From Marinobacterium litorale DSM 23545 (GTDB taxonomy: Bacteria; Pseudomonadota; Gammaproteobacteria; Pseudomonadales; Balneatricaceae), in NCBI RefSeq assembly GCF_000428985.1, contig NZ_AUAZ01000039.1, positions 1 through 32,711 of the forward strand: 32,711 bases of DNA. Direction: 5' to 3'. The translations under genes were made by a program, and so were the position numbers. The notes below the pieces were generated by a model, which saw nothing but the letters and a program-made list of their open reading frames with translations, had not been told where the DNA came from and searched no databases. Positions 14,395 through 29,305 of this stretch are shown one piece after another. Within the stretch, counting starts at the first letter, position 1, and each line of letters opens with the position of its first letter.

Positions 14395-15885
14395 TCAGTC
14401 ATCGGGATACAGAATGTTGAGCGGTACGGAGCTGCCGCCATCAACGACGATGGCCGCATGCTCCCGGGTCAGCTGGCGCGGTTCTGATACACCGCAGGCA
14501 TGTGCGATCATCTCCACCTCATGGACCAGATTGTGGTGGAAGTGAGCGACACGGTCGGCCTTTACCTCCGGTACCAACCCCTGCTGCAGGTGGGGGTCGT
14601 GCGTGGTTACACCGGTGGGACAGGTGTTCTTATTGCACTGCAACGCCTGGATGCAGCCCAGCGCGAACATGAACCCCCGCGCCGTCACCACAAAGTCCGC
14701 CCCCATACAGATGGCCGCCGCCACATCGGTGGGGTTGATCAGTTTGCCTGAGGCAATTACCCGCACACGGTTACGCAAGCCATGCTGGGTCAGCTTGTTA
14801 ACCAGAATCGGCAGGCTCTCCTTGAGCGGAAGACCCACGCTGTCGATCAGCGGCAAAGGCGCTGCACCTGTACCGCCGTCAGCACTGTCCAGCGTAATGA
14901 AATCCGGTGCCGATTCTGACCCCCGTTGATTGATCGCCTCGCAGAATCCATCAATCCAGCTGGTGGAGCCGAGCACCAGTTTGACGCCTACCGGCTTACC
15001 CGTAACCACCCGAACATGCTCGATAAAATCCAGCAGATCCGAGGTAGAGCCAATCTCCGGGTGGCGGTTCGGGCTGATCGACGCCTTGCCTTCGGGAATG
15101 CCGCGAATTTCAGCAATCTCCCGATTCACCTTGTCGCCCGGCAAGATACCGCCCTTGCCCGGCTTGGCGCCCTGACTGAGCTTAATCTCGAACATCTTTA
15201 CCTGGGGCAATGCAGACACCTGCACCAGTTTCTCATCGCTCAGCCGCCCATGCTCATCGCGGACTCCATACTTGGCGGTACCGATCTGAAATACGATGTC
15301 GCAGCCGCCTTCCAGGTGGTATGGCGACAAGCCACCCTCGCCCGTATTCATCCAGCAACCGGCCTTTTTCGCACCCTGAGACAGAGCACGGACCGCAGGG
15401 CGCGACAGCGCCCCGAAACTCATCCCGGAAATATTAAGAAGTGAGGGCGCATCGTAGGGCTCACGGCAGTAGGGTCCAATCCGCATAGTCTGGGTCTGGG
15501 CCGCATCTTCACTGAGGGTTGGGAACGGACAGTTAAGAAAGTAATAGGTACCCGGCCGGCGCAGATCACGGGTGGAGCCAAAAGCCACGGTGTTATCAAT
15601 ATTCTTGGCCGCGCGATACACCCAGGATCGTTGGGCGCGGTTAAACGGCATCTCTTCCCGGTCCATGGCAAAGAAATACTGACGAAAAAACTCACCCAGG
15701 CTCTCAAAGATATAGCGAAACCGCCCCAGCAGCGGATAGTTACGCCGGATGGTATGAGCGGTCTGACGCTTGTCCACCTGGTACATGACAAAGGCGGTAA
15801 TCAACCCACCCAAGATCAGCAACAGCAATAGAAGGCCGATGATGGCGATAAAGTCGATCGCCAGCATGAAGATCGTTTCATTCAT
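14395..15885 (-). CDS. Membrane-anchored FMN-binding glutamate synthase-like protein
   Basis: A 496-residue protein. The N terminus has one strong hydrophobic segment (about 8-36, IDFIAIIGLLLLLLILGGLI) that should anchor it in the inner membrane. The rest is the FMN/GltS central-domain barrel with GMSFGALSRPAVRALSQGAK, TGEGGLSPYH, KPGKGGILPG, DSADGGTGAAPLPLIDSVGLP and the iron-sulfur cysteines of CIQALQCNKNTCPTG (CX5CX4C, [3Fe-4S] type). It lacks the glutaminase and C-terminal domains of GltB, so it is not a full glutamate synthase; the true reaction of this widespread family is unclear. GGGAGCT precedes the ATG. It lies just downstream of the nrt operon on the same strand, but probably with its own promoter. 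Confidence 0.9.
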   Translation of the reverse strand: MNETIFMLAIDFIAIIGLLLLLLILGGLITAFVMYQVDKRQTAHTIRRNYPLLGRFRYIFESLGEFFRQYFFAMDREEMPFNRAQRSWVYRAAKNIDNTVAFGSTRDLRRPGTYYFLNCPFPTLSEDAAQTQTMRIGPYCREPYDAPSLLNISGMSFGALSRPAVRALSQGAKKAGCWMNTGEGGLSPYHLEGGCDIVFQIGTAKYGVRDEHGRLSDEKLVQVSALPQVKMFEIKLSQGAKPGKGGILPGDKVNREIAEIRGIPEGKASISPNRHPEIGSTSDLLDFIEHVRVVTGKPVGVKLVLGSTSWIDGFCEAINQRGSESAPDFITLDSADGGTGAAPLPLIDSVGLPLKESLPILVNKLTQHGLRNRVRVIASGKLINPTDVAAAICMGADFVVTARGFMFALGCIQALQCNKNTCPTGVTTHDPHLQQGLVPEVKADRVAHFHHNLVHEVEMIAHACGVSEPRQLTREHAAIVVDGGSSVPLNILYPDD

Positions 15886-15985: not shown

Positions 15986-17185
15986 TCAGGCATTGAACAG
16001 CAACTCATCGCGCAGGCTATCGGTGATCACCGTCTGCTCGCAAAGATGTTTGAAATAGTCCTGTCCAAGGCGAACATCACCATATAAAACCGCTCCGGCA
16101 ACCCGCCCATTACGCAGCCAAATCTTGCGATAATCGCCCTGCCCGGGATCATGATAGGCGATGGCATCAGCCGACTCCGGATCGATCTCGCCGCAGGAAA
16201 ACAGTTCGATACCACTCACCTTTAACTGAGTCGCAACGGGCTGCTCCGAATAGTGCGCCGAAGTGCCGGTCAGTTGCTGCGCCAGCACCCTCGCCTGATG
16301 CCAGATCGGTGCAACGAGACCATAGGTGGAACCTTCGAACTGACAGCATTCACCCAGTGCATAAACGTCCTCTTCACCGGTCCGCATCTCACTGTTCACC
16401 TCTATGGCACGATCACAGGCAAGCCCCGCCCGGCGAGCCAGCTCCACCTCCGGTGTCACACCCGCCGCAATGACCAGCAGCCTGGCCGAAAGATATCGGC
16501 CATCCTGCAACCTGACTCCGGTCACATGACCCTGTGCACCCTCGATGGCTTCCAGGCGGGAGTCGGTCATTACCTCCAGGCCACGCGCCTCCAGCGTCTC
16601 TCTCAACAGCGCGGAGGCGGTAACATCCAATTGCCGATTGAGTAAATAGCGGCTGCGCTGAAGAACCTTGACGTTCATTCCTCGCTTGCGGAGCCCTTCA
16701 GCGGCTTCCAGTCCAAGCAGGCCACCGCCGATCACCACCGCATTCCCGCCCTGCTCCGCCACCTCGGTCATTCGTTCCACATCCGCCCAGGTACGAAAAC
16801 CCATCACACCCTGCAGGTCGATACCCGGGAGATCAGGCATGGTCGAGCGAGATCCGGTGGCGAACACCAGCTTGTGATAACCCAGCTCGCGACCGCTATC
16901 TGTCTTGATCCGATGCCGGTCTGTATCCACGCTGACAACGGGGTCTGCGCAGATCAGATCGATCCCGTGCTCGCTGTACCACTCCCTGCCCTGCAGCTCC
17001 ACCTGCTGCGGTGTCATCTCCCCCGCCAATAGCGGTGACAGAAGCACCCGGTTGTAGGCCACCCGCGGCTCTTCGCCGATCACCAGTATCGATTCCGGCC
17101 TCGGCGAAGCCTTCACCAACTCCTGCAACAGCCGGTTGCCCGCCATCCCGTTGCCGATGATGACAAGATCGTAAGTCGTACTCAT
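15986..17185 (-). CDS. FAD/NAD(P)H oxidoreductase of nitrate assimilation (NasC/NirB N-terminal-like)
   Basis: A 399-residue flavoprotein reductase: FAD-binding GNGMAGNRLLQEL (10-22), central NAD(P)H-binding GGGLLGLEAAEGL, and VYALGECCQFEGSTYGLVAPIW as the second FAD motif, worded like the N-terminal half of NirB. The immediate context (last gene of the nrtABD operon, near nasA) suggests it passes NAD(P)H electrons to nitrate reductase NasA, as Klebsiella NasC does. It lacks the C-terminal [2Fe-2S] BFD-type domain that completes NasC-like proteins; NasA carries such a domain instead. An upstream in-frame extension to 17290 overlaps nrtD and is rejected; ATG 17185 starts 5 nt after the nrtD stop. 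Confidence 0.85.
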   Translation of the reverse strand: MSTTYDLVIIGNGMAGNRLLQELVKASPRPESILVIGEEPRVAYNRVLLSPLLAGEMTPQQVELQGREWYSEHGIDLICADPVVSVDTDRHRIKTDSGRELGYHKLVFATGSRSTMPDLPGIDLQGVMGFRTWADVERMTEVAEQGGNAVVIGGGLLGLEAAEGLRKRGMNVKVLQRSRYLLNRQLDVTASALLRETLEARGLEVMTDSRLEAIEGAQGHVTGVRLQDGRYLSARLLVIAAGVTPEVELARRAGLACDRAIEVNSEMRTGEEDVYALGECCQFEGSTYGLVAPIWHQARVLAQQLTGTSAHYSEQPVATQLKVSGIELFSCGEIDPESADAIAYHDPGQGDYRKIWLRNGRVAGAVLYGDVRLGQDYFKHLCEQTVITDSLRDELLFNA

Positions 17186-17189
17186 CGGT

Positions 17190-18053
17190 TTACCCGATGG
17201 CCCGCTGCTTTTTTTCGCTGCTCTCGCCAGCCTCCGAGCGTCGGATACTGCGTCGCTGCTCCATATCTTCCACCTTGCGCTGCTTCTCATAGAGGAAGCT
17301 CAATACCTGATGCCGGTAGTGGTTGTACTGAGAATCATCAGCCAGGGCGATACGATCGCGCGGGCGCGCCAGCTCCACGTTCAACACCTCGCCGACAGTA
17401 GCGGCGGGCCCATTGGTCATCATGACGATACGATCCGACAGCAGAACCGCTTCATCCACATCGTGGGTGATCATGATCACGGTATTGTTCAGGTCTTTCT
17501 GAATCTCCATCAGTGAGTCCTGGAGGTGGGCTCGGGTCAGCGCGTCGAGTGCCCCGAACGGCTCGTCCATCAACAGGACCTTGGGTTCCATTGCCAGCGC
17601 ACGGGCAATACCAACCCGCTGTTTCATGCCGCCGGAAATCTCGTCCGGGCGCTTATGCATGGCATGGGTCATGTGAACAAGCTCCAGATTGTGCTCAATC
17701 CAGGCTTTCATCTCCGCCTTGCTCTTCGTGCCCTTGAACACTTGCTTTACCGCCAGCTCCACATTCTCGTAGGCCGTCAGCCAGGGCAGCAACGAATGGT
17801 TCTGGAACACAACGGCACGCTCCGGACCCGGCTCGTTGACTTCACGTCCATCCAGTACGACGCCGCCGGTCGTGGCCTGATGAAGGCCTGCAACGATGTT
17901 CAGCACCGTGGACTTACCACAACCGGAGTGACCGATCAGGGAGACAAACTCACCCTTTTCGATCTTCAGGTTAACGCCATCCAGCGCCTTGAACGGACCC
18001 TTGGGCGTCGGAAATTCGATGGATACATCACTGATGTCTAGATGCTTGGCCAT
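17190..18053 (-). CDS. nrtD: Nitrate ABC transporter ATP-binding protein
   Basis: A 287-residue ABC ATPase with Walker A GHSGCGKST, signature ISGGMKQRVGIARAL, Walker B VLLMDEPFGALDAL and switch MITHDVDEA. The GHSGCGKSTVLNIVAGL wording and MTNGPAATVGEVL are characteristic of NrtD/NasD/TauB-type nitrate and related importers. A charged C-terminal tail (about 250-287, RKVEDMEQRRSIRRSE) is unlike a solute-binding NrtC domain, so this is the short NrtD form. Start ATG 18053 lies 12 nt after nrtB; TTAAGGAGGGCT provides the ribosome-binding site. Confidence 0.93.
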   Translation of the reverse strand: MAKHLDISDVSIEFPTPKGPFKALDGVNLKIEKGEFVSLIGHSGCGKSTVLNIVAGLHQATTGGVVLDGREVNEPGPERAVVFQNHSLLPWLTAYENVELAVKQVFKGTKSKAEMKAWIEHNLELVHMTHAMHKRPDEISGGMKQRVGIARALAMEPKVLLMDEPFGALDALTRAHLQDSLMEIQKDLNNTVIMITHDVDEAVLLSDRIVMMTNGPAATVGEVLNVELARPRDRIALADDSQYNHYRHQVLSFLYEKQRKVEDMEQRRSIRRSEAGESSEKKQRAIG

Positions 18054-19153: not shown

Positions 19154-20524
19154 TCAGATCTGATCGTCAGCTTTAAGACCGATGTCGAACTTCTCAAGAT
19201 ATTCGTTGGGCTTGCGGCCGTCGTAGGTAACGTTGTCGATAAACTGGGTCTGGGGCGCTTTGAAGCCATCTTCGCTGCCGAAATCCGGGAAATCCGACGC
19301 CGCCATATGCCCCTCGGCGATCAGCTCTTTAGCTGCCGTGGCGTAGATGTCCGGACGATACACCTTCTTGGCAATATCCATATACCAGCTGTCCGGCTTG
19401 TGCTCGGCAATCTGGCCCCAGCGGCGCATCTGGGTCAGGTACCAGATCGCATCGGAGTAGTACGGGTAGGTGGCGTTGTGCCGGAAGAACACATTGAAGT
19501 CAGGCACTTCACGCACATCACCTTTTTCATACTCGAAGGTGCCGGTCATGGAGTTGGCAATAACCTCTTCGTCTGCGCCCACATAGGCCGGACGTGACAG
19601 GATCTTGACCGCTTCCGGACGGTTGGCGTTGTTGTTTTCGTCGAGCCATTTGGCGGCACGAATCAGCGCCTTAACTACACGAATATGGGTATTCGGGTAC
19701 TCCTCGGCCCATGACTGAGAAACGCCGAACACCTTCTCCGGGTTGTTCTTCCAGATCTCGTAGTCGGTAATCACCGGGACCCCGATACCCTTGAACACCG
19801 CCTGCTGGTTCCAGGGTTCACCGACGCAGTAACCGTAAATGGTGCCCGCTTCCATGGTGGCCGGCATCTGTGGTGGCGGTGTCACCGACAACAGCGCATC
19901 AGCCTGAAGCTGTCCGCTGGTATCGCCCTTGTGCGGTGCATAAAAACCCGGGTGAATACCACCGGCTGCCAACCAGTAGCGCAGCTCATAGTTATGGGTG
20001 GACACCGGGAACACCATACCCATATTGAAAGGCTTACCCTCGGAGCGGTACTTATCCACAACCGGCTTGAGGTAGTCAGCCTTAATCGGGTGAACAGGCT
20101 TACCATCATCACCGACCGGGATATTGGGCTTCATCTGTTCCCAGATATCGTTGGAAACGGTAATTCCGTTGCCGTTCAGATCCATACTGAACGCGGTGAT
20201 AATGTCCGCTTTGGTGCCAAATCCGATGGTCGCACCCAACGGCTGACCGGCCAGCATATGAGCACCGTCCAGCTGGCCATCGATCACCCGGTCAAGCAGC
20301 ACCTTCCAGTTTGCCTGGGCTTCCAGGGTCACGTAGAGGCCTTCGTCTTCGAAGTAGTGCTTCTCGTATGCCACCGCCAAAGGTGCCATATCGGTAAGCT
20401 TGATAAAGCCGAATTTCAGCTCCTCTTTTTCAGGGTAGCCGACCTCCGCATGTGCCGTTGTCGCCGTCAAGGCAATGGAAGCAGCCAGCAGAAGTCGCTT
20501 CAGGGTTCCCGGTCGTTTACTCAT
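19154..20524 (-). CDS. nrtA: Nitrate-binding periplasmic protein
   Basis: A 456-residue solute-binding protein with a Sec signal ending TAHA (cleavage about residue 27) and no lipobox. The mature part has NrtA features: [56 protein letters not shown] and the C-terminal [20 protein letters not shown]. These contain residues of the nitrate pocket in cyanobacterial NrtA. The longer frame up to 20611 runs through the attenuator hairpin and is rejected; ATG 20524 has GGGAGAG 6 nt upstream. It is the first gene of nrtA-nrtB-nrtD-oxidoreductase and is preceded by a sigma-54 promoter and an antitermination leader. Confidence 0.95.
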
Positions 20525-20546: not shown

Positions 20547-20596
20547 AAAAAAGGCGCCGCTCCGCATTGGAACAGTGTCCAAAGCAGAACGGCGCC
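20547..20596 (-). terminator. Attenuator terminator in the nrtA leader
   Basis: On the minus strand GGCGCCGTTCTGC pairs with GCGGAGCGGCGCC (a few G-U pairs) and an inner TTGGA/TCCAA closes a 6-nt loop. The hairpin spans 20596-20553 and is followed by T6 (20552-20547), GTTTT, then the nrtA ribosome-binding site. A terminator placed 22 nt before the ATG must be bypassed for nrtA to be expressed. Confidence 0.85.
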
Positions 20597-20604
20597 CTTG
20601 CCGT
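20589..20604 (-). promoter_or_regulatory. ANTAR-type antitermination hairpin, nrtA leader
   Basis: Minus strand ACGGC-AAGGGC-GCCGT: perfect 5-bp stem with a hexaloop having A at position 1 and G at position 4, the signature of ANTAR-protein RNA targets. Its 3' arm is shared with the terminator stem, so the two structures are mutually exclusive. A second small hairpin GAT-ACAGAC-ATC (20627-20616), also A1/G4, lies 11 nt upstream, giving the tandem layout known for ANTAR substrates. Confidence 0.75.
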
Positions 20605-20671
20605 AGTTCATTTACGATGTCTGTATCAATCAGGCTTCACTCAGCGTTGGCGAAGCATTTGTACTTAGCAA

Positions 20672-20688
20672 AGCACAGTCCGTACCAC
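20672..20688 (-). promoter_or_regulatory. Sigma-54 promoter of the nrt operon
   Basis: Minus strand TGGTACGGACTGTGCTT: GG (20686-20685), exactly 10 nt, GC (20674-20673); compare the consensus TGGCAC-N5-TTGC. Transcription from about 20660 would place both leader hairpins and the attenuator in the 5' UTR. Confidence 0.7.
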
Positions 20689-20851
20689 TTCAATAATTTA
20701 CCGAAAAAACAGTGAGCTACGGCTATCCCCCACCGATCTTCAGCCACAACCGGTATGAAAGATCGCACCAAAACACAGCACTCTGTTACATTTTTGTGCG
20801 CACTTTATGTCCTCCATGCGTTAAGTCCCCCTGTTAACGCCCCTCTTACAC

Positions 20852-20867
20852 TGGCACCTGTTTTGCT
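20852..20867 (+). promoter_or_regulatory. Sigma-54 promoter of nasA
   Basis: TGGCACCTGTTTTGCT: GG at 20853-20854, 10 nt, GC at 20865-20866. It matches the -24/-12 consensus almost perfectly. The predicted start near 20878 precedes the nasA leader hairpins. It is divergent from the nrt promoter about 165 bp away; half-sites such as GCACCA (20765-20770) and GTGCGCAC (20796-20803) between them could bind NtrC-like activators, but none is a convincing full site. Confidence 0.8.
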
Positions 20868-20914
20868 TGCTCTGTCTTATCCAGTTGTCTCTTTAGACAT
20901 CTCAATCTGATTTT

Positions 20915-20926
20915 GGCAAAGACGCC
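20915..20926 (+). promoter_or_regulatory. ANTAR-type antitermination hairpin, nasA leader
   Basis: GGC-AAAGAC-GCC: short stem with an A1/G4 hexaloop. Its 3' arm is the start of the terminator stem (ACGCCCGC). An upstream hairpin TGTCT-CTTT-AGACA (20886-20899) sits where a first stem would be expected, but its loop does not fit the A1/G4 rule. Confidence 0.65.
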
Positions 20927-20972
20927 CGCTTCGACACCGTGTTAGCACGCTGTCTCGATGCGGGCGTTTTTT
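20922..20972 (+). terminator. Attenuator terminator in the nasA leader
   Basis: ACGCCCGC (20922-20929) pairs with GCGGGCGT (20960-20967), extended inward by TCGA-type pairing. The U-tract T6 (20967-20972) follows. It ends 15 nt before the nasA ATG. Confidence 0.85.
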
Positions 20973-20987
20973 GTTTGTGGAGTGCAC

Positions 20988-23612
20988 ATGAATCAAACAA
21001 CCACCTGTCCATACTGCGGCGTCGGCTGCGGCGTAACGGCTCAAATAGACGCAGAGCGTGTGATTGCGGTCTCCGGTGACCCTGAGCATCCGGCCAATTT
21101 CGGACGGCTCTGTGTAAAAGGCAGCGCACTGGCGGAAACTACTCTGCCCGCTGACCGACTCCTTTATCCTCAGCTTCATGGACAGCGCTGTGACTGGACT
21201 CGTGCACTGGATAGTCTGGCGACAGGTTTTCAAGCGATCATCGACCGTGACGGTCCGCAGGCGATCGCCATGTATCTGTCGGGCCAGCTTCTGACCGAAG
21301 ACTACTATGTGGCCAACAAGCTGATGAAAGGCTTTATCGGCTCGCCCCACGTGGATACCAATTCACGCCTGTGTATGTCATCCACGGTGGCGGGCTACAA
21401 GCGCGCCTTTGGCGGCGACCTTCAGCCCTGCTCCTACGAAGATATTGATCACGCAGAACTGATCGTACTGGTGGGTTCCAACACAGCCTGGAACCATCCG
21501 ATCCTGTTTCAGCGCATGGCCGCCGCGAAAAAGAATAATCCACAACTGAAAGTGGTGCTGCTGGACCCCCGTCGTACCGCAACCGCAGATATCGCCGACC
21601 TGCATCTGCCGCTTAAGCCCGGCACCGATGCACTGATCTTCAATGCGCTGCTGGCCGCCCTGGCCGATAGCGGGCAACTGAACCGGCGGTTTATCGAAGC
21701 CCACACCGAGGGGTTCGACAGCGCTCTGGCAGCGGCACGCGAAACCGCAGGCAATCTCGCTAATGTGGCGCAGCGCGCCGATATTCCCCTGAGCGACCTG
21801 GAGACTCTCGTAGAGTGGTTCTGCCAGCATGAGCAAGCGCTCACTGTCTTCTCCCAGGGCATTAACCAGTCCAGCAGTGGCACAGATAAGGTGAATGCAA
21901 TTATTAATTGCCATCTGGCCAGCGGCCGGATCGGCCAGCCCGGTATGGGCCCCTTCTCACTCACCGGCCAACCCAATGCCATGGGCGGTCGAGAGGTCGG
22001 CGGACTGGCCAATCAACTGGCCGCCCATATGGATTACAGCCAACCCGAATTCATAGAGCGGGTAGGACGGTTCTGGCGAGCACCCAATATGGCGCAGAAG
22101 GAGGGTCACAAGGCGCTGGCGCTGATCGAAGCGATAGAATGCGGTGAGATCAAGGCGCTCTGGATCATGGCCACGAATCCACTGGTCAGCCTGCCTGATG
22201 CCAACCGCGTGCGTCGAGCACTGGAGATGTGTGAGTTTGTCGTTGTCTCCGAGTGTATGACCCACACCGACACGCTTGCGTATGCCGATCTGGTGCTACC
22301 GGCCAGCGGCTGGAGCGAAAAGAACGGCACCGTCACCAACTCCGAGCGGCGCATATCGCGCCAGCGCGGCCTGGTGGCGCCACCGGGAGAAGCGAGACAT
22401 GACTGGTGGATTATCTGCGAGCTGGCCAAGCGGCTGGGCTATGCAGACGCCTTCAGCTACACGGGCCCTGCCGATATTTTCCGAGAACACGCGCAACTCT
22501 CGGGTTATGAAAACAGCGGCAGCCGCGGCTTCGATATCAGCGGTCTGGGCACCCTTACGGCAGCCGAATATGACGATCTTGCGCCCATTCAGTGGCCGGT
22601 GACAGTCGCTGCGCCAGAGGGAACACCGCGGCTGTTTGCTGACAACCGCTTTTTTACGCCCAGCGGTCGCGCCCAGTTTCTGGCGATCACGCCGCGTGCG
22701 CCTGTGCAGACACCAACCGCGGAGTTCCCGCTGCTGGTGAATTCAGGCCGCATCCGGGATCAGTGGCATACCATGACCCGCACCGGCCGCGCCCCGCGTC
22801 TGCTACAGCATTGCGCCGAGCCTTTTATCGAAGTGCATCCTCGGGATGCCGAGCGATACGACTTGCAAGCATCGCAGCTGGCGGAGCTCTCCAACGACCT
22901 GGGACGTTATATCGGGCGTGTCCGCATTACCGACCAGCAGCGACCGGGCGAAGTCTTTATCCCTATGCATTGGACCGCCCAGTTCAGCCAGCAGGCGATC
23001 AGCGGGGCCCTCTATGCATCGGTGGCCGACCCGGTATCGGGTCAGCCCGAGTCAAAGCAGGGTCGCGCCAGCCTGAAACCGGTTAAAACCCGCTGGGAGG
23101 CCCGTTTGATGGTGCGCTCGGAGGCAAAACTCAATGATCACTGGTGGACCCGGGTGCCGCTGAATCATTGCATCAGCTACCGATTGGCGGACAGCCAGCC
23201 TGTGGATAACTGGCGTGAATGGTGCGCCAACCTGACCGGTATCCCGACTCTGTGGATTGAAGACTCACACCGGGGCCGCTTCCGCGCCGTTGGTCTTGAG
23301 GGTGATCGACTGGAGTGGATCCTGTTAGTGGAGCCGCACCATGAATTGCCGGATCTGGACTGGCTGGATGAGCAGTTTGCACATCCCATCGATCTCGATA
23401 CACGCCGCCAACTGCTGGCGGCCAGAGCGGCTGAGGGACAAGCCTGCGGTGCCGTGATCTGCAGCTGTTTCCAGGTCCGCGAACCCGAGATCCGTTCTGC
23501 TATCGCCGATGGCGCTACGAACACCGAAGCACTGGGCGAACAACTGAAGTGCGGGACAAACTGCGGGTCCTGCCTGCCTGAGCTTAAGGCCCTGATTCAG
23601 GACGGGGGGTGA
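20988..23612 (+). CDS. nasA: Assimilatory nitrate reductase catalytic subunit
   Basis: Reduces nitrate to nitrite in the cytoplasm at a molybdenum bis-MGD centre. It has 874 residues. The N-terminal [4Fe-4S] motif is C7, C10, C14, C42 (CPYCGVGC ... LCVKG). A molybdopterin oxidoreductase domain follows, with DTNSRLCMSSTVAGYKRAFG containing the likely Mo-ligand Cys, and a molydopterin dinucleotide-binding domain (about 590-700, SGRIRDQWHTMTRTGR). A C-terminal BFD-type [2Fe-2S] domain has cysteines at 825, 827, 855, 859 and 862. The BFD domain is likely the electron entry from the FAD oxidoreductase. ATG 20988 has TGGAG upstream; the frame extension to 20958 lies in the attenuator. It is a monocistronic unit, divergent from nrtA and convergent with nirBD. 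Confidence 0.96.
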   Translation: MNQTTTCPYCGVGCGVTAQIDAERVIAVSGDPEHPANFGRLCVKGSALAETTLPADRLLYPQLHGQRCDWTRALDSLATGFQAIIDRDGPQAIAMYLSGQLLTEDYYVANKLMKGFIGSPHVDTNSRLCMSSTVAGYKRAFGGDLQPCSYEDIDHAELIVLVGSNTAWNHPILFQRMAAAKKNNPQLKVVLLDPRRTATADIADLHLPLKPGTDALIFNALLAALADSGQLNRRFIEAHTEGFDSALAAARETAGNLANVAQRADIPLSDLETLVEWFCQHEQALTVFSQGINQSSSGTDKVNAIINCHLASGRIGQPGMGPFSLTGQPNAMGGREVGGLANQLAAHMDYSQPEFIERVGRFWRAPNMAQKEGHKALALIEAIECGEIKALWIMATNPLVSLPDANRVRRALEMCEFVVVSECMTHTDTLAYADLVLPASGWSEKNGTVTNSERRISRQRGLVAPPGEARHDWWIICELAKRLGYADAFSYTGPADIFREHAQLSGYENSGSRGFDISGLGTLTAAEYDDLAPIQWPVTVAAPEGTPRLFADNRFFTPSGRAQFLAITPRAPVQTPTAEFPLLVNSGRIRDQWHTMTRTGRAPRLLQHCAEPFIEVHPRDAERYDLQASQLAELSNDLGRYIGRVRITDQQRPGEVFIPMHWTAQFSQQAISGALYASVADPVSGQPESKQGRASLKPVKTRWEARLMVRSEAKLNDHWWTRVPLNHCISYRLADSQPVDNWREWCANLTGIPTLWIEDSHRGRFRAVGLEGDRLEWILLVEPHHELPDLDWLDEQFAHPIDLDTRRQLLAARAAEGQACGAVICSCFQVREPEIRSAIADGATNTEALGEQLKCGTNCGSCLPELKALIQDGG

Positions 23613-23613
23613 A

Positions 23614-23788
23614 CACCCGCGGCATACCGTACATCCTGACATCGCCGCTCCTGTGCATCCATGCACCCGCGGCATACCGTACATCCTGACATCGCCGCTC
23701 CTGTGCATCCATGCACCCGCGGCATACCGTACATCCTGACATCGCCGCTCCTGTGCATCCATGCACCCGCGGCATACCGTACATCCTG
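23614..23788. repeat. 50-bp perfect tandem repeats, 3.5 copies
   Basis: The unit starts CACCCGCGGCATACCGTACA and is exactly 50 bp, at 23614, 23664, 23714 and a 25-bp partial copy at 23764. The three full copies are identical. The unit junction forms the inverted repeat GTGCA-TCCA-TGCAC (for example 23653-23666), and GCGGC/GCCGC within the unit can pair. It begins 2 nt after the nasA stop and fills the convergent gap to nirD. The reading frames through it on the minus strand are artefacts of the repeat. Confidence 0.95.
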
Positions 23789-23796
23789 TACATAAA

Positions 23797-23829
23797 AGGG
23801 GGTGGCCGATTTGTGTTCGGACACCCCCT
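23797..23829 (-). terminator. Terminator of nirBD
   Basis: AGGGGGTG/CACCCCCT outer stem with inner CCGA/TCGG pairing. On the minus strand it is followed by TTTTATG. It lies about 20 nt after the nirD stop; the plus-strand side has no U-tract. Confidence 0.8.
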
Positions 23830-23849
23830 GGATACCGTCCTGAATCTAT

Positions 23850-24188
23850 TTACATGGCAACTTCCACGCGATCCCCCTTCACCCTGACCGGCCAGGTTCG
23901 CAGCGCCAGCTCCGGTTGCTCCAGGCAGACCCCGTCACGCAAACGAAAGTGCTGTTTATACAGCGGGGAGGCCACTGACCACTCCCCCTGCTGTTCGCAT
24001 AACAGCCCCCAGGCCAGCACTTCGGCCCGGGAGAACGGATCACGGTGAGCCAGTGCATAGACCTGCGGCTGGTCCGCTTTTGGCCAAAACAACGCCACCG
24101 CCTCATCACCCAGTTTGGCGGCTACACCGGACCCGGGTACCAGATCGTTCAACGCACACAGATCCTGCCAGTTATCATTCGTGCTCAT
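23850..24188 (-). CDS. nirD: Nitrite reductase (NADH) small subunit
   Basis: A 112-residue partner of NirB with a Rieske-like fold. Family wording is seen in WQDLCALNDLVPGSGVAAKL, VYALAHRDPFS and SPLYKQHFRLRDGVCLE. As in E. coli NirD, the Cys/His ligands of true Rieske clusters are missing. The start overlaps the nirB stop: ATGATG at 24191 and 24188; the second ATG is better spaced (7 nt) from GGAGG, though the first is possible. Translational coupling to nirB is expected. Confidence 0.93.
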   Translation of the reverse strand: MSTNDNWQDLCALNDLVPGSGVAAKLGDEAVALFWPKADQPQVYALAHRDPFSRAEVLAWGLLCEQQGEWSVASPLYKQHFRLRDGVCLEQPELALRTWPVRVKGDRVEVAM

Positions 24189-26704
24189 CATGCACCCTCC
24201 TCGACCAGTTCTCGGGCTGGGATTAGCTGGTCACGCTCGCTGATCTGAACAATCCGTGCGCGACCCGGTTCATCGGTATTCACAAAACTGCGGAAGCGTT
24301 TGCGCTTCTCCGGGTTCTCGACCGCTGTCTTCCACTCGCACTGGTAGCTATCGACCACGTGCTGCATACGGGCTTCGAGCTCGGCGGCCAGGCCCAGTGT
24401 GTCGTCAATGACCACCTGACGCAGGTAGTCGAGCCCACCGTCCAGGTTCTCCAGCCAGACCGATGTCCGCTGCAGGCGGTCGGCCGTGTAGATGTAAAAC
24501 ATCAGGATGCGGTCGATATAGCGAACCAGCGTCTCGTCATCCAGGTCCGTGGCGAACAGGTCCGCATGGCGCGGTTTCATGCCGCCATTACCACAGACAT
24601 AGAGATTCCAGCCGTTTTCAGTGGCGATCACACCGATATCCTTACTCTGTGCCTCGGCACACTCGCGGGTGCATCCCGACACCGCCATTTTGATCTTGTG
24701 GGGTGAGCGCAGCCCCTTATAGCGATTCTCGATGTCGATCGCCATGCCGACACTGTCCTGCACACCGTAGCGACACCAGGTACTCCCCACACAGGACTTC
24801 ACGGTGCGCAGCGACTTACCGTAAGCATGGCCAGTCTCGAATCCTGCTGCGATCAGTTCCTCCCAGATCAGTGGCAGCTCGTCCAGCGTGGCGCCAAACA
24901 GGTCGATCCGCTGGCCGCCGGTAATCTTGGTGTACAGTTTATAGCGCTGCGCCACCTGGCCGATCACCATCAACATTTTGGGTGTGATCTCACCGCCAGG
25001 TATGCGGGGCACGACGGAGTAGGTGCCGTTCTTCTGCATATTGGCCATGAAGGTGTCGTTGGTGTCCTGAAGCGGGACCAGATTGGGCTGGTGAATATGT
25101 TCGTTCCAGCAACTGGCGAGAATGGAAGCGACCGCTGGTTTGCAGATCTCACAGCCGCCGCCTTGACCGTAGCGCTCCAGCAGGTGGTCAAAACTTTTAA
25201 TCTGCTCAACGCGAATCAGATGGAACAGCTCCTCACGGGTATAACTGAAGTGCTCGCAAATCGAACGGTCCACCTGGACCCCACGCTTCTCGAGCTCACT
25301 CTCCAGCACCGTTTTCAGCATTGCCGCGCAGCCGCCGCAGCCGGTGGCCGCCTTGGTGCAGGCTTTCAGATCGCCGACGCTGGTAGCACCATCATTCATC
25401 GCTTCACAGATATCACCCTTGGTCACGTTATGACAGGAGCAGATTGTGGCGGTATCCGGCAGTTCGGAGCTGGACAGAGTCGGTGCATCGCCGCTGCCAG
25501 CGGGCAGTATCAGGGATTCCGGCTGCTCCGGCAGAGGCATATCATTCAGGGCCATCTGCAATAGCGGATCGAAGTAGCTGTTATCGCCGATCAGAATCGC
25601 GCCCAATAGATGTTTGCCATCTTCCGATACCACCAAGCGGCGGTAGATCCCTTTACACTCATCGGTGAACCGGTAGCTGCGCGCTCCCGCAGTGTGGCCG
25701 TGGGCGTCACCTATCGAGCCCACATCCACGCCTAGCAGCTTGAGCTTGGTGGACATATCAGCGCCCTGGAAGCTGAGCTGACCATCACCGGTCAGATGAG
25801 ACACCGCCGCCCTCGCCATGGTGTAGCCCGGCGCCACCAGACCGAAGTGACGACCGTTCCAGACCGCACATTCGCCGATGGCATAGATATCGGGATCGCT
25901 GGTCAGGCAGTGCTGATCCACATTGATACCGCCTCGCTCACCCAGTGTCAGCTCCGCCGCCCGACCCAGCGCATCCTGCGGACGGATACCGGCGGAAAAG
26001 ACAATCAGGTCGGTTTCCAGCGACTCGTTATCGGAGAAGCACATCCGCATCCGGGCGTTCTCACCAGCCTCAATGCGGTCGGTGGCTTTACCGGTATGAA
26101 CCTGAACCCCCAGGGACTCAACCTTGCGCTTGAGCATCGCGCCCGCTTCATCATCCAGCTGCACCGGCATCAGACGTGGTGCAAACTCCACCACATGCAC
26201 CGACAGACCCAGACTTTTCAGGGCATTGGCGGCTTCCAGGCCAAGCAGGCCCCCGCCGATCACCACGCCGGTCTTTACCCCCTCGGCACTGGCGCGGATC
26301 GCATCCAGGTCATCCAGGGTGCGGTAAACCAGGCAGTGATCGGCATCACCGCCCGGAATCGGCGGTACAAACGGGTAGGAGCCCGTTGCTAATACCAGCT
26401 TATCGTAGGGATATTCACCCGCTTCGGTCACAATGACTTTACGGCTGCGATCCAGTCCGGTCACTGCTTCACCCAGGTGAAGATCGATCTGCTCATTTTG
26501 GTAGAACCCCGGCTCCCCCAGCTTTAGATGATCGGCACTGGACTGCTCGAAATAGCTGGAAAGATGGACACGGTCATAGGCCGGATGATGCTCCTCACCA
26601 AATACGGTCAGCTGATAATTCGCCGCTGCATCGGTTTTCAACCACTGCTCTACAAAGTGATGACCGACCATTCCATTGCCGACCACGATCAATCGCTGTT
26701 TCAT
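24188..26704 (-). CDS. nirB: Nitrite reductase (NADH) large subunit
   Basis: Reduces nitrite to ammonium with NADH in the cytoplasm. It has 838 residues. The N-terminal FAD/NAD(P)H reductase (about 1-400) has GNGMVGHHFVEQW and GGGLLGLEAANAL. A BFD-type [2Fe-2S] segment CSCHNVTKGDICEAM ... CGGC lies near 420-475. The nitrite/sulfite reductase ferredoxin-like and haem domains follow. Siroheme/[4Fe-4S] ligands are C638, C644 (CVGSTWC) and C678, C682 (SGCTREC). ATG 26704 is preceded by GGGGAGG; the longer frame to 26818 runs through the attenuator. It is co-transcribed with nirD and preceded by a sigma-54 promoter plus antitermination leader. It needs siroheme, whose committed enzyme cobA lies in the same cluster. 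Confidence 0.97.
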   Translation of the reverse strand: MKQRLIVVGNGMVGHHFVEQWLKTDAAANYQLTVFGEEHHPAYDRVHLSSYFEQSSADHLKLGEPGFYQNEQIDLHLGEAVTGLDRSRKVIVTEAGEYPYDKLVLATGSYPFVPPIPGGDADHCLVYRTLDDLDAIRASAEGVKTGVVIGGGLLGLEAANALKSLGLSVHVVEFAPRLMPVQLDDEAGAMLKRKVESLGVQVHTGKATDRIEAGENARMRMCFSDNESLETDLIVFSAGIRPQDALGRAAELTLGERGGINVDQHCLTSDPDIYAIGECAVWNGRHFGLVAPGYTMARAAVSHLTGDGQLSFQGADMSTKLKLLGVDVGSIGDAHGHTAGARSYRFTDECKGIYRRLVVSEDGKHLLGAILIGDNSYFDPLLQMALNDMPLPEQPESLILPAGSGDAPTLSSSELPDTATICSCHNVTKGDICEAMNDGATSVGDLKACTKAATGCGGCAAMLKTVLESELEKRGVQVDRSICEHFSYTREELFHLIRVEQIKSFDHLLERYGQGGGCEICKPAVASILASCWNEHIHQPNLVPLQDTNDTFMANMQKNGTYSVVPRIPGGEITPKMLMVIGQVAQRYKLYTKITGGQRIDLFGATLDELPLIWEELIAAGFETGHAYGKSLRTVKSCVGSTWCRYGVQDSVGMAIDIENRYKGLRSPHKIKMAVSGCTRECAEAQSKDIGVIATENGWNLYVCGNGGMKPRHADLFATDLDDETLVRYIDRILMFYIYTADRLQRTSVWLENLDGGLDYLRQVVIDDTLGLAAELEARMQHVVDSYQCEWKTAVENPEKRKRFRSFVNTDEPGRARIVQISERDQLIPARELVEEGA

Positions 26705-26737
26705 GGTATTGCCTCCCCAGGGAGCTTTTTTTTTCGC

Positions 26738-26789
26738 AAAAAAAAGGCGCCCACTTGCACTTTCGCTTTCGCGAAAGGAAGTGGACGCC
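26738..26789 (-). terminator. Attenuator terminator in the nirB leader
   Basis: Minus strand GGCGTCCACTT pairs with AAGTGGGCGCC, with an inner CTTTCGC-GAAA-GCGAAAG stem capped by a GNRA-type loop (26789-26746). T8 follows (26745-26738). The run GCG-A9 comes next, before the nirB ribosome-binding site. Confidence 0.88.
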
Positions 26790-26796
26790 ATTGTCC
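26783..26796 (-). promoter_or_regulatory. ANTAR-type antitermination hairpin, nirB leader
   Basis: Minus strand GGAC-AATGGC-GTCC: 4-bp stem with an A1/G4 hexaloop, 3' arm shared with the terminator stem. Four nt upstream is a strong hairpin GGATGTC/GGCATCC (26820-26801, one G-U pair, 6-nt loop CTTTGT), giving the tandem-stem layout of ANTAR targets, although this first loop does not fit A1/G4. Confidence 0.75.
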
Positions 26797-26837
26797 GGAT
26801 GGATGCCACAAAGGACATCCTATGTTGGGAGGCTCAA

Positions 26838-26853
26838 TGCAGGTCTTGTGCCA
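26838..26853 (-). promoter_or_regulatory. Sigma-54 promoter of nirBD
   Basis: Minus strand TGGCACAAGACCTGCA: GG (26852-26851), 10 nt, GC (26840-26839); near-perfect -24/-12 match. Start predicted near 26827, just ahead of the first leader hairpin. An NtrC-like dyad is possible at 26922-26906 (TGCATA-N5-GGTGCG). Confidence 0.8.
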
Positions 26854-26941
26854 CCGCTATCACCTTGAAAAGCCTTAGCCGAAAGCCCACGGAGCGCGGT
26901 ATAAACGCACCTTTAATATGCATCAAATTAAAAACCGCACC

Positions 26942-28210
26942 CTATTGGTGCTGATTGGCACCTGAATCGACGGCTCCAATCACCTTCTTCGCCACATCTG
27001 CCACCCGGCAATTACTCTGCATCGCGGACTCCCGCAATCGCCGATAAGCCTCCTCTTCACTGAGCCCCTGGTACTGCATAAGTACGCCCTTGGCACGCTC
27101 GATCACCTTACGCTCTCGCAGAGCCTCCCGTGCTTCATTCAGTTCATCACTCATCTGTTGCAGGTGAGCTGACTGCTCCTGAAGAAGCTGGTAAAGCGAG
27201 CGGTTCACCTCCGGTGAGGCCGGAGCATCAGCCGATTTAGTGGGTGCATCCAGCAACATCGACAGCGGCGAGACCGGTTCGGCTCCAGACTCCTGCTGCA
27301 ACCTGAACCGATTACTGCGCATCGCCTGCTTTGCCGCTTCCACACGGGCTCGGGAGCTTGTCAGCAGCTGCTCGCGCAGCTCGCTCTCGACCTGGTGCAT
27401 CCGGTCAATGCGGGTTGTGATGACGGCAAACCAGATCTCACTGATACTGTCCGGCACCGCGGCCTCTCCGACAAATGCATCGATCATTGCCCGCAGCCGC
27501 GCAAGCTCGGCGGTGGCCGGATCCTGATCGATCCTCTTCCAGTTATCGCACTGATCGACGCCTGCGAACTGAAGAAAGGTCTCCAGGCAACGCTGTTGCG
27601 ACTCGCGCAGGTGCTGTAAACGCCCCACCAGTTCTTTGTCGATCTTGCGGGCCGCCAGACCCACAGAACCCCAGGCCCGCTCAAGCCCCGTGTATTCCTT
27701 GGCCTGCATGAAGTTGAACAGCGCCACCAACACGCGCGTTATCTCCGGGTCCGTGGCGATATCCGCAGCCTCGAATATCACCGCCAGCAAGCTACCGATC
27801 AGACGGCTGTATGCCTCGGTGGAGTCCGTGGCATCCAATTTTTGCTCAGCGACTGCCCGGCGCAGGGCCTCCAGCTCATCAAGCTGAAGCATCACCTGAG
27901 CCAGGCGGTTATAGAGTCGTGCACTGCTCCATAAAGGCCGACGCTCACCACTCACCCGCTCCAGATAGGCCCGAAAATCGGTTTCCGCCTGCCCGCTGGC
28001 AGCAACCTGCTCCTGACGCTCCTTGCCAAAATGTGCACCGGCAGACGCCAGAAATACATTGCTGATACCACGTTCACGCTGAAGCTCATGTACTAACTGT
28101 GCGGCATAAGCCACCAGCTCACTGCTGTGGGCCAACTGCTCCAGATTGGAGATCTCATGATTTCGGGCCGCCAGCAGAAAATGCTCACTCAGGTTACGGG
28201 GGCTAGTCAT
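26942..28210 (-). CDS. nasR: Nitrate/nitrite-responsive antiterminator, NIT plus ANTAR domains
   Basis: A 422-residue cytosolic regulator. The N-terminal helical NIT domain (about 25-290; VHELQRERGISNVFLASAG near its start and WFAVITTRIDRMHQVE near its end) senses nitrate or nitrite in Klebsiella NasR. The C-terminal ANTAR domain (about 345-410; LREALRERKVIERAKGVLMQ, then GLSEEEAYRRLRESAM) binds leader RNA and prevents terminator formation. ATG 28210 has CGGAGAAG upstream; the extension to 28279 is rejected. As in Klebsiella, it lies just upstream of a nitrate-assimilation operon in the same orientation. Four nearby leaders carry matching RNA targets. Its own promoter is not evident and its leader has no attenuator. 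Confidence 0.94.
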   Translation of the reverse strand: MTSPRNLSEHFLLAARNHEISNLEQLAHSSELVAYAAQLVHELQRERGISNVFLASAGAHFGKERQEQVAASGQAETDFRAYLERVSGERRPLWSSARLYNRLAQVMLQLDELEALRRAVAEQKLDATDSTEAYSRLIGSLLAVIFEAADIATDPEITRVLVALFNFMQAKEYTGLERAWGSVGLAARKIDKELVGRLQHLRESQQRCLETFLQFAGVDQCDNWKRIDQDPATAELARLRAMIDAFVGEAAVPDSISEIWFAVITTRIDRMHQVESELREQLLTSSRARVEAAKQAMRSNRFRLQQESGAEPVSPLSMLLDAPTKSADAPASPEVNRSLYQLLQEQSAHLQQMSDELNEAREALRERKVIERAKGVLMQYQGLSEEEAYRRLRESAMQSNCRVADVAKKVIGAVDSGANQHQ

Positions 28211-28281
28211 CACACTTCTCCGGGAACAAACGCACTTCGATAAGCGATTGCAGCAAAGGTTGTTCCACCACGCAGCCATAA

Positions 28282-28297
28282 AGGCATTAAACTTGCT
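28282..28297 (+). promoter_or_regulatory. Sigma-54 promoter of cobA
   Basis: AGGCATTAAACTTGCT: GG (28283-28284), 10 nt, GC (28295-28296). Matches GGCAT-N5-TTGCT of the -24/-12 class. Start predicted near 28308, ahead of the leader hairpins. It lies divergently in the gap to nasR. Confidence 0.65.
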
Positions 28298-28328
28298 TCA
28301 TTAGAATCAGTTTGAGCTTGAATAGCTC

Positions 28329-28379
28329 GGGAGTATGACGCACTCCCACACACAATCCGTTACACCCGGCAAAGGCGCC
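28329..28379 (+). promoter_or_regulatory. ANTAR-type tandem hairpins, cobA leader
   Basis: The first stem GGGAGT/ACTCCC (28329-28347) has a 7-nt loop ATGACGC. The second stem GGC-AAAGGC-GCC (28368-28379) has an A1/G4 hexaloop. The second hairpin's loop and 3' arm overlap the 5' arm of the terminator, so only one can form. Confidence 0.7.
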
Positions 28380-28424
28380 TGACTCCTTAACGAAAGTATA
28401 GGAGTCAGGCGCCTTTGTTTTTTT
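28371..28424 (+). terminator. Attenuator terminator in the cobA leader
   Basis: AAAGGCGCCTGACTCCT (28371-28387) pairs perfectly with its complement at 28400-28416, followed by GTTTTTTT (28417-28424). The next bases are the cobA ribosome-binding site GGAGGA (28425-28430). Confidence 0.92.
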
Positions 28425-28438
28425 GGAGGACTTGATTC

Positions 28439-29305
28439 ATGGCTGCATTGACCTACTTTCGCTCCGCCCGCCCCCTTTGGAACGGAACCCAACTGATCTC
28501 GCGCCTGTCACGCCGTTTTCATCGGGAACCGCAGCCGGCACAGGGCCACGTCAGCCTGATTGGCGCCGGGCCCGGCGATCCTGAGCTGATCACCCGTAAA
28601 GGCTGGCGGTTACTGCTTGCTGCCGATGTCATCGTGTATGACGCCCTGGTCAGCGACCTGCTGATGGAAGAGATCCCCGCCCATATTCGGCGTATCTACG
28701 TGGGGAAGCGTAAGGGTGCCCACAGCGCCAGCCAGGAGCAGATCTGCCGGTTGCTGGTTTCGTTGGCTCAGCAAGGGTTGAATGTGGCTCGTTTGAAAGG
28801 CGGAGACCCATTGGTTTTTGGCCGCCTCACTGAGGAGCTTGCAGCACTGAAAGTAGCCGGTATCGCGTTCGACCTAGTGCCCGGTATCACCGCCGCCGCC
28901 GGTTGCGCCGCCAGTTGCGGTATTCCGCTGACCGAAAGGGTAACAGCGCCGCGCCTGCGCATGGTTACCGCCCACAGCTGTGATGATCGTCCCATCGACT
29001 GGGCCGACTTGGCCCGCCGCGATGAAACATTGGTGTTCTACATGGGGTTATCGATGGCGCCGACGATCAGCCAGCAACTGCAACTACATGGGCTACCTGC
29101 CGACTGGCCCGTCCTGCTGGTTGAACGGGGAACCCAACCCGAGCAACGCAGTATCCCCACCCGCCTTGACCAAATGGCTCAGGAGGCTAAGCGCCACAAT
29201 CTATCGGGACCAACACTGATTCTGGTTGGCATGGTGACTCAGGGTGTTCACCCTAGCGAAAGACTGGAGAGCCTTGATTTAAAGGCAGAGCGCAAGCATC
29301 CCTGA
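28439..29305 (+). CDS. cobA: Uroporphyrinogen-III C-methyltransferase
   Basis: SAM-dependent methylation of uroporphyrinogen III at C2 and C7 gives precorrin-2, the precursor of siroheme. This 288-residue protein has the SUMT motifs: VSLIGAGPGDPELITRKG, DVIVYDALVS, VARLKGGDPLVFGR, VPGITAAAGCAASCGIPLT and a C-terminal PTLILVGMV. An N-terminal extension of about 35 residues (MAALTYFRSARPLWNG onward) precedes the catalytic core. No CysG-type dehydrogenase/ferrochelatase domain is fused, so sirohaem completion must occur elsewhere. Its leader shares the nitrate antitermination module, so it is probably dedicated to NirB cofactor supply. Confidence 0.95.
   Translation: MAALTYFRSARPLWNGTQLISRLSRRFHREPQPAQGHVSLIGAGPGDPELITRKGWRLLLAADVIVYDALVSDLLMEEIPAHIRRIYVGKRKGAHSASQEQICRLLVSLAQQGLNVARLKGGDPLVFGRLTEELAALKVAGIAFDLVPGITAAAGCAASCGIPLTERVTAPRLRMVTAHSCDDRPIDWADLARRDETLVFYMGLSMAPTISQQLQLHGLPADWPVLLVERGTQPEQRSIPTRLDQMAQEAKRHNLSGPTLILVGMVTQGVHPSERLESLDLKAERKHP

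Follow-up and report, generated by a model that had tools for sequence, protein, structure and literature searches.

Nitrate-assimilation leaders of Marinobacterium litorale: sigma-54-like promoters and predicted antitermination by NasR

The locus and its four leaders

The nitrate-assimilation locus described here belongs to Marinobacterium litorale DSM 23545 and lies on contig NZ_AUAZ01000039.1 (C36 in our numbering) of a 4.38 Mb genome with a completeness rating of 100%; the whole stretch of DNA that was analysed, 32,711 nucleotides, is referred to as the window. Four units, beginning with nrtA, nasA, nirB and cobA, are clustered with nasR, and each is preceded by a sigma-54-like promoter, a hairpin with an AANGRC hexaloop (P2) and a terminator that overlaps this hairpin (Table 1). 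It is very likely that the four constitute a doubly controlled nitrate-assimilation regulon, in which initiation would depend on sigma-54 and elongation on antitermination by NasR, with a fifth target in trans.

NasR combines an N-terminal NIT domain (Pfam E-value 3.7e-57) with a C-terminal ANTAR domain (E 2.4e-21) and is the sole ANTAR match found in the genome. Its residues 14-411 match the solved structure of Klebsiella oxytoca NasR (4akk, E 7.1e-43), and its arginine-bearing motifs, ERG and ERA, are invariant in an alignment of 14 NasR sequences. The nasA product was assigned by Pfam; its NCBIfam matches include NasC, at a score below the NasC cut-off. We take the role of cobA here to be the supply of siroheme for NirB.

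Table 1. Positions of the leaders, their parts and the genes of the locus (window coordinates unless a contig or locus is named)
Feature	Position	Strand	Details
nrtA sigma-54-like promoter	20687-20671	-	TGGTACGGACTGTGC, score 8
nrtA P1 hairpin	20656-20634	-	8 bp with one bulged A, hexaloop AACGCT (A1, G4)
nrtA P2 hairpin	20589..20604	-	hexaloop AAGGGC at 20599-20594, 5 bp
nrtA attenuator terminator	20547..20599	-	overlaps P2 loop and 3' arm
nasA sigma-54-like promoter	20852-20868	+	TGGCACCTGTTTTGC, score 10
nasA P2 hairpin	20915..20926	+	hexaloop AAAGAC at 20918-20923, 3 bp
nasA attenuator terminator	20918..20972	+	
nirB NtrC-like palindrome	26936-26952	.	GCACCctattGGTGC, upstream of nirB promoter, 10/12 positions
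nirB sigma-54-like promoter	26853-26837	-	TGGCACAAGACCTGC, score 10
nirB P2 hairpin	26783..26796	-	hexaloop AATGGC at 26792-26787, 4 bp
nirB attenuator terminator	26738..26789	-	
cobA sigma-54-like promoter	28282-28298	+	AGGCATTAAACTTGC, score 9
cobA P2 hairpin	28368..28379	+	hexaloop AAAGGC at 28371-28376, 3 bp
cobA attenuator terminator	28371..28424	+	
Fifth leader	C10:109764-109831	-	R1 42.4 bits, E 1.8e-6
Fifth leader, chemoreceptor and NIT-protein unit	L164:5779-7832 (C10)	-	
nasR	26942..28210	-	NIT (nitrate/nitrite sensor) and ANTAR (RNA-binding), 422 residues
nrtA-type nitrate-binding protein	19154..20524	-	
nrtB, nrtC, NirB-like FAD reductase, Glu_synthase-domain protein	after nrtA, to 14395	-	
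NirB-like FAD reductase	15986-17290	-	after nrtC
Glu_synthase-domain protein	14395-15885	-	after nrtC
nasA, assimilatory nitrate reductase	20988..23612	+	molybdopterin and BFD [2Fe-2S] domains
nirB and nirD, assimilatory nitrite reductase	23850..26704	-	
cobA, uroporphyrinogen-III C-methyltransferase	28439..29305	+	

Sigma-54-like sites (GG-N10-GC in a TGGCAY...TTGC context) were scored out of 10 on a scale of our own, and the transcription starts referred to below are predicted from them rather than mapped. A preliminary description of this DNA had noted GG-N10-GC before all four units, and the scores in Table 1 bear it out. Sites resembling the cobA element are found 5' of cobA in two loci of relatives as well (L086 and L087), and most leaders of this type, those of relatives included, have a sigma-54-like site upstream. 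Palindromes were scored against the NtrC consensus. The better one upstream of the nirB promoter (Table 1) is equalled by only 0.7% of shuffles; the region 26906-26952 there holds two such palindromes, with 10/12 and 9/12 positions matched. The same search upstream of nrtA/nasA, of cobA and of the fifth leader gave none that beat shuffles, 30%, 60% and 51% of which, respectively, were as good as the best site.

All four hexaloops that the preliminary description had listed were found, each closed by a C:G pair and each with A in the first and G in the fourth position (A1/G4). In these leaders and in the fifth the P2 stem has at least 3 base pairs, and in all four of the window the 3' arm of P2 lies inside the 5' arm of the terminator, again as first described. 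Taken in isolation, the terminators have folding energies of -30.5 to -36.5 kcal/mol. The minimum-energy fold of every full leader includes the terminator, and a prefix stopping after P2 forms the hexaloop hairpin, so that the modelled folding fits a switch in which P2 and the intrinsic terminator would be mutually exclusive.

When both strands of the window were scanned for an A1/G4 hexaloop (A-N2-G) on a stem of at least 3 base pairs with an overlapping terminator, five matches were obtained in the 32.7 kb, namely the four leaders and a weak one at 2886; 20 windows resampled to first order gave 0.3 on average. An Rfam search of the window at the gathering threshold returned only a thiamine pyrophosphate riboswitch (RF00059, 5750-5858, plus strand, 64.6 bits). 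The nine sub-threshold Rfam matches between 20400 and 28600 include no ANTAR family and were taken as chance.

Conservation of the leaders and co-occurrence with ANTAR genes

Leaders were compared across 68 NasR-bearing loci, 28 from named genomes and 40 further stretches. The scan of these and the window gave 122 raw matches, of which 90 passed a filter (loop AA... or ATTGGC, plus either a known downstream gene or a terminator of 7 base pairs or more); removal of nine by eye left 81, including the four of the window. The genes downstream are nrtA (19), nirB (18), nasA (10), cobA (9) and a NirB-like reductase (2), and such leaders stand before nitrate genes in other genera also. The other 23 precede 17 formate/nitrite-transporter-type genes, two MFS-like genes, one chemoreceptor gene and three genes without a label; the transporter-type and MFS-like labels were read by eye, with one of the 17 transporters (L171) checked by Pfam. 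A leader of the window type 5' of a gene of the formate/nitrite-transporter family is seen in many relatives (L171, L166, L172 and others). In L121 and L125 a homologue of the NirB-like reductase is itself preceded by such a leader.

To avoid selecting for the loop itself, 108 gene starts in NasR-bearing loci, the window included, were examined in a way that required neither A1 nor G4. A terminator lies upstream of 58, and in 57 of these it overlaps a hexaloop hairpin, the best loop of which has A1 and G4 in 56 of the 57 cases, counts that come from sequences sharing descent and are not independent events. Both sides change in four of the five P2 pairs, with a covariation score of 0.465 as against 0.07-0.19 for slid partners (pairing of the inner P2 pairs, though not of the outer ones, was a condition of the scan), and both sides change in six of nine terminator pairs. 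The preliminary description had looked to relatives for conservation and covariation of the hexaloop stems, and compensatory changes are thus present in P2 and terminator alike.

It had also suggested a covariance search with the ANTAR motif. The model used here, R1, was made from leaders outside the window, 56 of the 64, and recovers all four window leaders, nrtA weakly (nirB 50.0, nasA 41.4, cobA 40.7 and nrtA 22.9 bits); the palindromic cobA leader is scored on the opposite strand too, at 28.9 bits. Genome-wide, R1 found one further strong site, the fifth leader. Since the scoring covered 150 of the 1186 first-look candidates, it may have passed over other weak leaders. A match on contig C9 (24.8 bits) is a plain terminator and was rejected. 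A genome search with a pattern for hexaloop plus terminator, which is unable to match the nirB or cobA leaders, gave nrtA, nasA, the fifth leader and one match on contig C2, the reversed control pattern giving two.

Among 116 genomes of the family, an R1 match (E up to 0.01) occurs in 75 and an ANTAR gene in 78; 72 have both, three the match only, six the gene only and 35 neither (Fisher p = 5e-20, uncorrected for descent).

A fifth leader before a chemoreceptor gene

The fifth leader lies on contig C10 and is very probably a NasR target. It comprises TGGCATAGGGTTTGC, a first hairpin (P1) with the loop ATAGAC, a P2 with the loop AACGAC on 3 base pairs and a terminator, and the R1 match stops 13 nucleotides before an ATG. 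The gene that follows encodes a chemoreceptor of 374 residues with the signalling domain of methyl-accepting chemotaxis proteins (MCP; PF00015, E 2.4e-32), beyond which Pfam gave nothing above cut-off and thus no recognised ligand-binding domain. The second gene encodes a protein of 281 residues that has a NIT domain (PF08376, E 7.8e-10, 40 bits against a cut-off of 24.9) and a hydrophobic stretch at its N-terminus. Searches with this partner gave no match on plasmids and, with it as a single sequence, none to NasR in the PDB; by profile, its NIT domain matches that of NasR with E 9.5e-8. Ten CheW matches represent chemotaxis coupling domains in the genome. A third NIT-domain protein is encoded by a 727-residue frame at C3:143915-144625 (minus strand), and contig C3 has no R1 match.

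The arrangement recurs in relatives. Homologues of the MCP N-terminus (E up to 1e-5) occur in 17 of the 116 family genomes, and a leader of the fifth type precedes 14 of them, 13 found by R1 directly upstream and one (G260) by eye. The 13 score 15.8 to 44.5 bits, five with E above 0.01; hexaloop and terminator are readable in all of them, with a P2 of just 2 base pairs in G206. No leader was seen at the homologues of G295, G293 and G290, and one is present in G396, from another family. An alignment of the 13 with that of G396 has invariant GCAA, G4 and closing GC, and RNAalifold gives the hexaloop hairpin. In 22 loci picked around MCP or NIT matches and examined for both genes, the NIT homologue is present in all and an adjacent MCP homologue in 20, the NIT genes of L225 and L227 having no neighbouring MCP match.

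The chemoreceptor and its NIT partner are possibly a split nitrate chemosensor, through which the cell may coordinate nitrate use with a swimming response to nitrate. The alternative that the leader is real while the pair senses redox state, nitrite or the like, or serves non-chemotactic signalling, has to be taken seriously, although we lean against it. The NIT chemoreceptor PA4520 of Pseudomonas aeruginosa reportedly did not bind nitrate (PMC6381276), and the partner is only 18% identical to the NIT domain of NasR in the profile alignment. Set against this, all 22 aligned proteins of the partner type keep its two arginine-containing motifs, HRG and GQxRA, which correspond in the alignment to ERG and ERA of NasR. 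Contacts between arginines and nitrate, at residues that may or may not lie in these motifs, have been proposed in NasR (PMC7496416). Moreover, in G274 the unit of leader, MCP and NIT genes lies between nasR and nasA and adjoins nasR, with the MCP in a 308-residue form that has no N-terminal part.

Single hexaloops, the proposed regulation and known systems

The published ANTAR target RNA has two A1/G4 hexaloops (Ramesh 2012; PMC3369931, PMC8934654). The preliminary description overlooked the first hexaloop, which three of the four leaders are without: an A1/G4 P1 is present upstream of P2 in the nrtA and fifth leaders and absent in those of nasA, nirB and cobA. Between predicted start and P2 the nasA leader has no A-N2-G whatever, and those of nirB and cobA have a hairpin, but with the loops CUUUGU and AUGACGC. 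Three of the four in the window seem to function with just the one A1/G4 hexaloop of P2. Of the 81 leaders, the 64 that remained at a sigma-54 score of 8 or more and without duplicates include 31 with an A1/G4 P1 candidate, as against 12.75 expected from shuffles, so that P1 is enriched and yet absent in about half; six, by their predicted starts, have no A-N2-G before P2 and nevertheless keep P2. The distance from predicted start to P2 is at most 23 nucleotides in seven of 13 measurable chemoreceptor leaders, four of the seven having a poor sigma-54 score (7/10) and one, G204, being measured from the wrong hairpin.

It is conceivable, if unlikely, that only the nrtA and fifth leaders respond to NasR, those of nasA, nirB and cobA being decayed or regulated mainly by nitrogen status. 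The distribution of P1 among the five leaders would fit this, as would the requirement for P1 in antitermination by EutV in vivo, reported in PMC8934654. Decay does not, however, predict the six leaders that keep P2 in the absence of any A-N2-G, nor that, in other genera, the P2 A1/G4 and the terminator overlap are retained before the homologues of nasA, nirB and cobA; in addition, the reader in certain relatives may be of NasT type rather than NasR. That the leaders are plain terminators, the strong examples of which are common everywhere, or have another reader, whether some other RNA-binding protein or attenuation by a leader peptide, is highly improbable, given the single ANTAR gene, the near-invariant A1/G4 and the co-occurrence with ANTAR genes.

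The doubly controlled regulon under NasR also has points against it. NtrC-like sites exceed shuffles at nirB alone. The nasA and cobA leaders have short P2 stems, of only 3 base pairs, the nrtA leader is weak for R1 genome-wide (E 0.12), and three leaders lack the P1 that EutV needs; according to PMC7496416, NasR itself binds P2 alone at ~12 uM, compared with ~1 uM for P1P2. By the rule applied, 50 of the 108 gene starts have no terminator, and in one of five covariation measures further P2 pair types number 8 as against 8.5 in shuffles. Shared descent among the genomes of the co-occurrence test makes the Fisher value overstate independence, and G202, G212 and G215 carry leader matches with no ANTAR gene detected. 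In G202 both listed matches are on contig C17, one starting at base 218, so that the gene for the reader may lie outside this contig.

On balance, control of all four units by NasR, as the preliminary description proposed, is a well-supported prediction, which draws on the single ANTAR gene, covariation in P2 and terminator, the recurrence of the leaders in other genera and co-occurrence. As to the proposed nitrogen step, sigma-54-like sites recur upstream of most leaders, and an NtrC-like site stands out at nirB alone. The four leaders do form a cluster, but the regulon is not local, its fifth leader being on another contig. In the scheme that we infer, nitrogen limitation would act through sigma-54, and probably NtrC, to start transcription of nrtABC, nasA, nirBD and cobA. 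By default, as the anatomy and covariation of the RNA suggest, a strong terminator would fold before the ribosome-binding site in each leader. On induction the NIT domain of NasR would sense nitrate or nitrite, and its ANTAR domain would bind the AANGRC hairpin; because P2 uses the 5' arm of the terminator, binding would prevent termination and the genes would be read. Going further, NasR may couple nitrate assimilation to chemotaxis, with nitrate antiterminating the split chemoreceptor (the opposite logic to that of McpN, below) and the two-hexaloop rule failing for NasR and NasT, since many leaders of this lineage would work with a single A1/G4 hexaloop. This extension is put forward tentatively, and we find it plausible though slightly on the doubtful side.

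The nasF promoter of K. oxytoca is under sigma-54 and NtrC, as may be the promoters here, and sigma-54 control of nas genes is familiar. Its leader resembles those of the window in having a NIT-ANTAR reader, A1/G4 hexaloops, an overlapping terminator and a nitrate-assimilation target; it serves one operon with a dual P1P2 motif, whereas the present genome has four clustered leaders, three of them without P1, and a fifth in trans (PMC7496416). The regulons of NasS-NasT are alike in that several genes for nitrate or denitrification are under ANTAR antitermination, and differ in that the reader NasT is paired with a separate sensor, NasS, unlike NasR (PMC6759348). In Desulfotomaculum and Pelobacter, which are other bacteria, regulons for other genes have been predicted, again with several ANTAR RNAs in one genome and on nitrogen genes (PMC3369931). 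ANTAR antitermination, NasR, multi-operon ANTAR regulons and a multi-target NasT regulon are already in print (PMC3369931, PMC7496416, PMC6759348).

A literature search limited to titles and the starts of abstracts, with few subscription journals, gave no terminator-type ANTAR leader before a chemoreceptor and no four-leader NasR cluster. In an example given in a supplementary legend, the ribosome-binding site of a methyl-accepting chemotaxis gene is overlapped by an ANTAR RNA, with possible translational control and no terminator (PMC3369931). McpN of P. aeruginosa is likewise a nitrate-linked chemoreceptor under nutrient control; its PilJ domain is within the receptor and nitrate lowers the mcpN transcript (PMC6381276). 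Here, by contrast, the NIT protein is separate and expression is predicted to rise with nitrate. The chemoreceptor branch offers a testable link between the eating of nitrate and nitrate taxis. The locus as a whole would carry ANTAR control by a one-component protein beyond the single operon, to a regulon of several operons in which each promoter has two inputs (nitrogen starvation AND nitrate), siroheme supply for nitrite reductase included.

The eut attenuators of Enterococcus faecalis, read by EutV/EutW, share with the present leaders the use of one ANTAR protein on several terminators and the competition of P2 with the terminator. They differ in belonging to a two-component system for ethanolamine that needs the dual hexaloop (PMC3369931, PMC8934654), whereas the reader here is a one-component sensor of nitrate and several of the leaders have just one A1/G4 hexaloop. 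Such natural leaders without the first A1/G4 hexaloop provide a direct test of whether ANTAR antitermination needs two.

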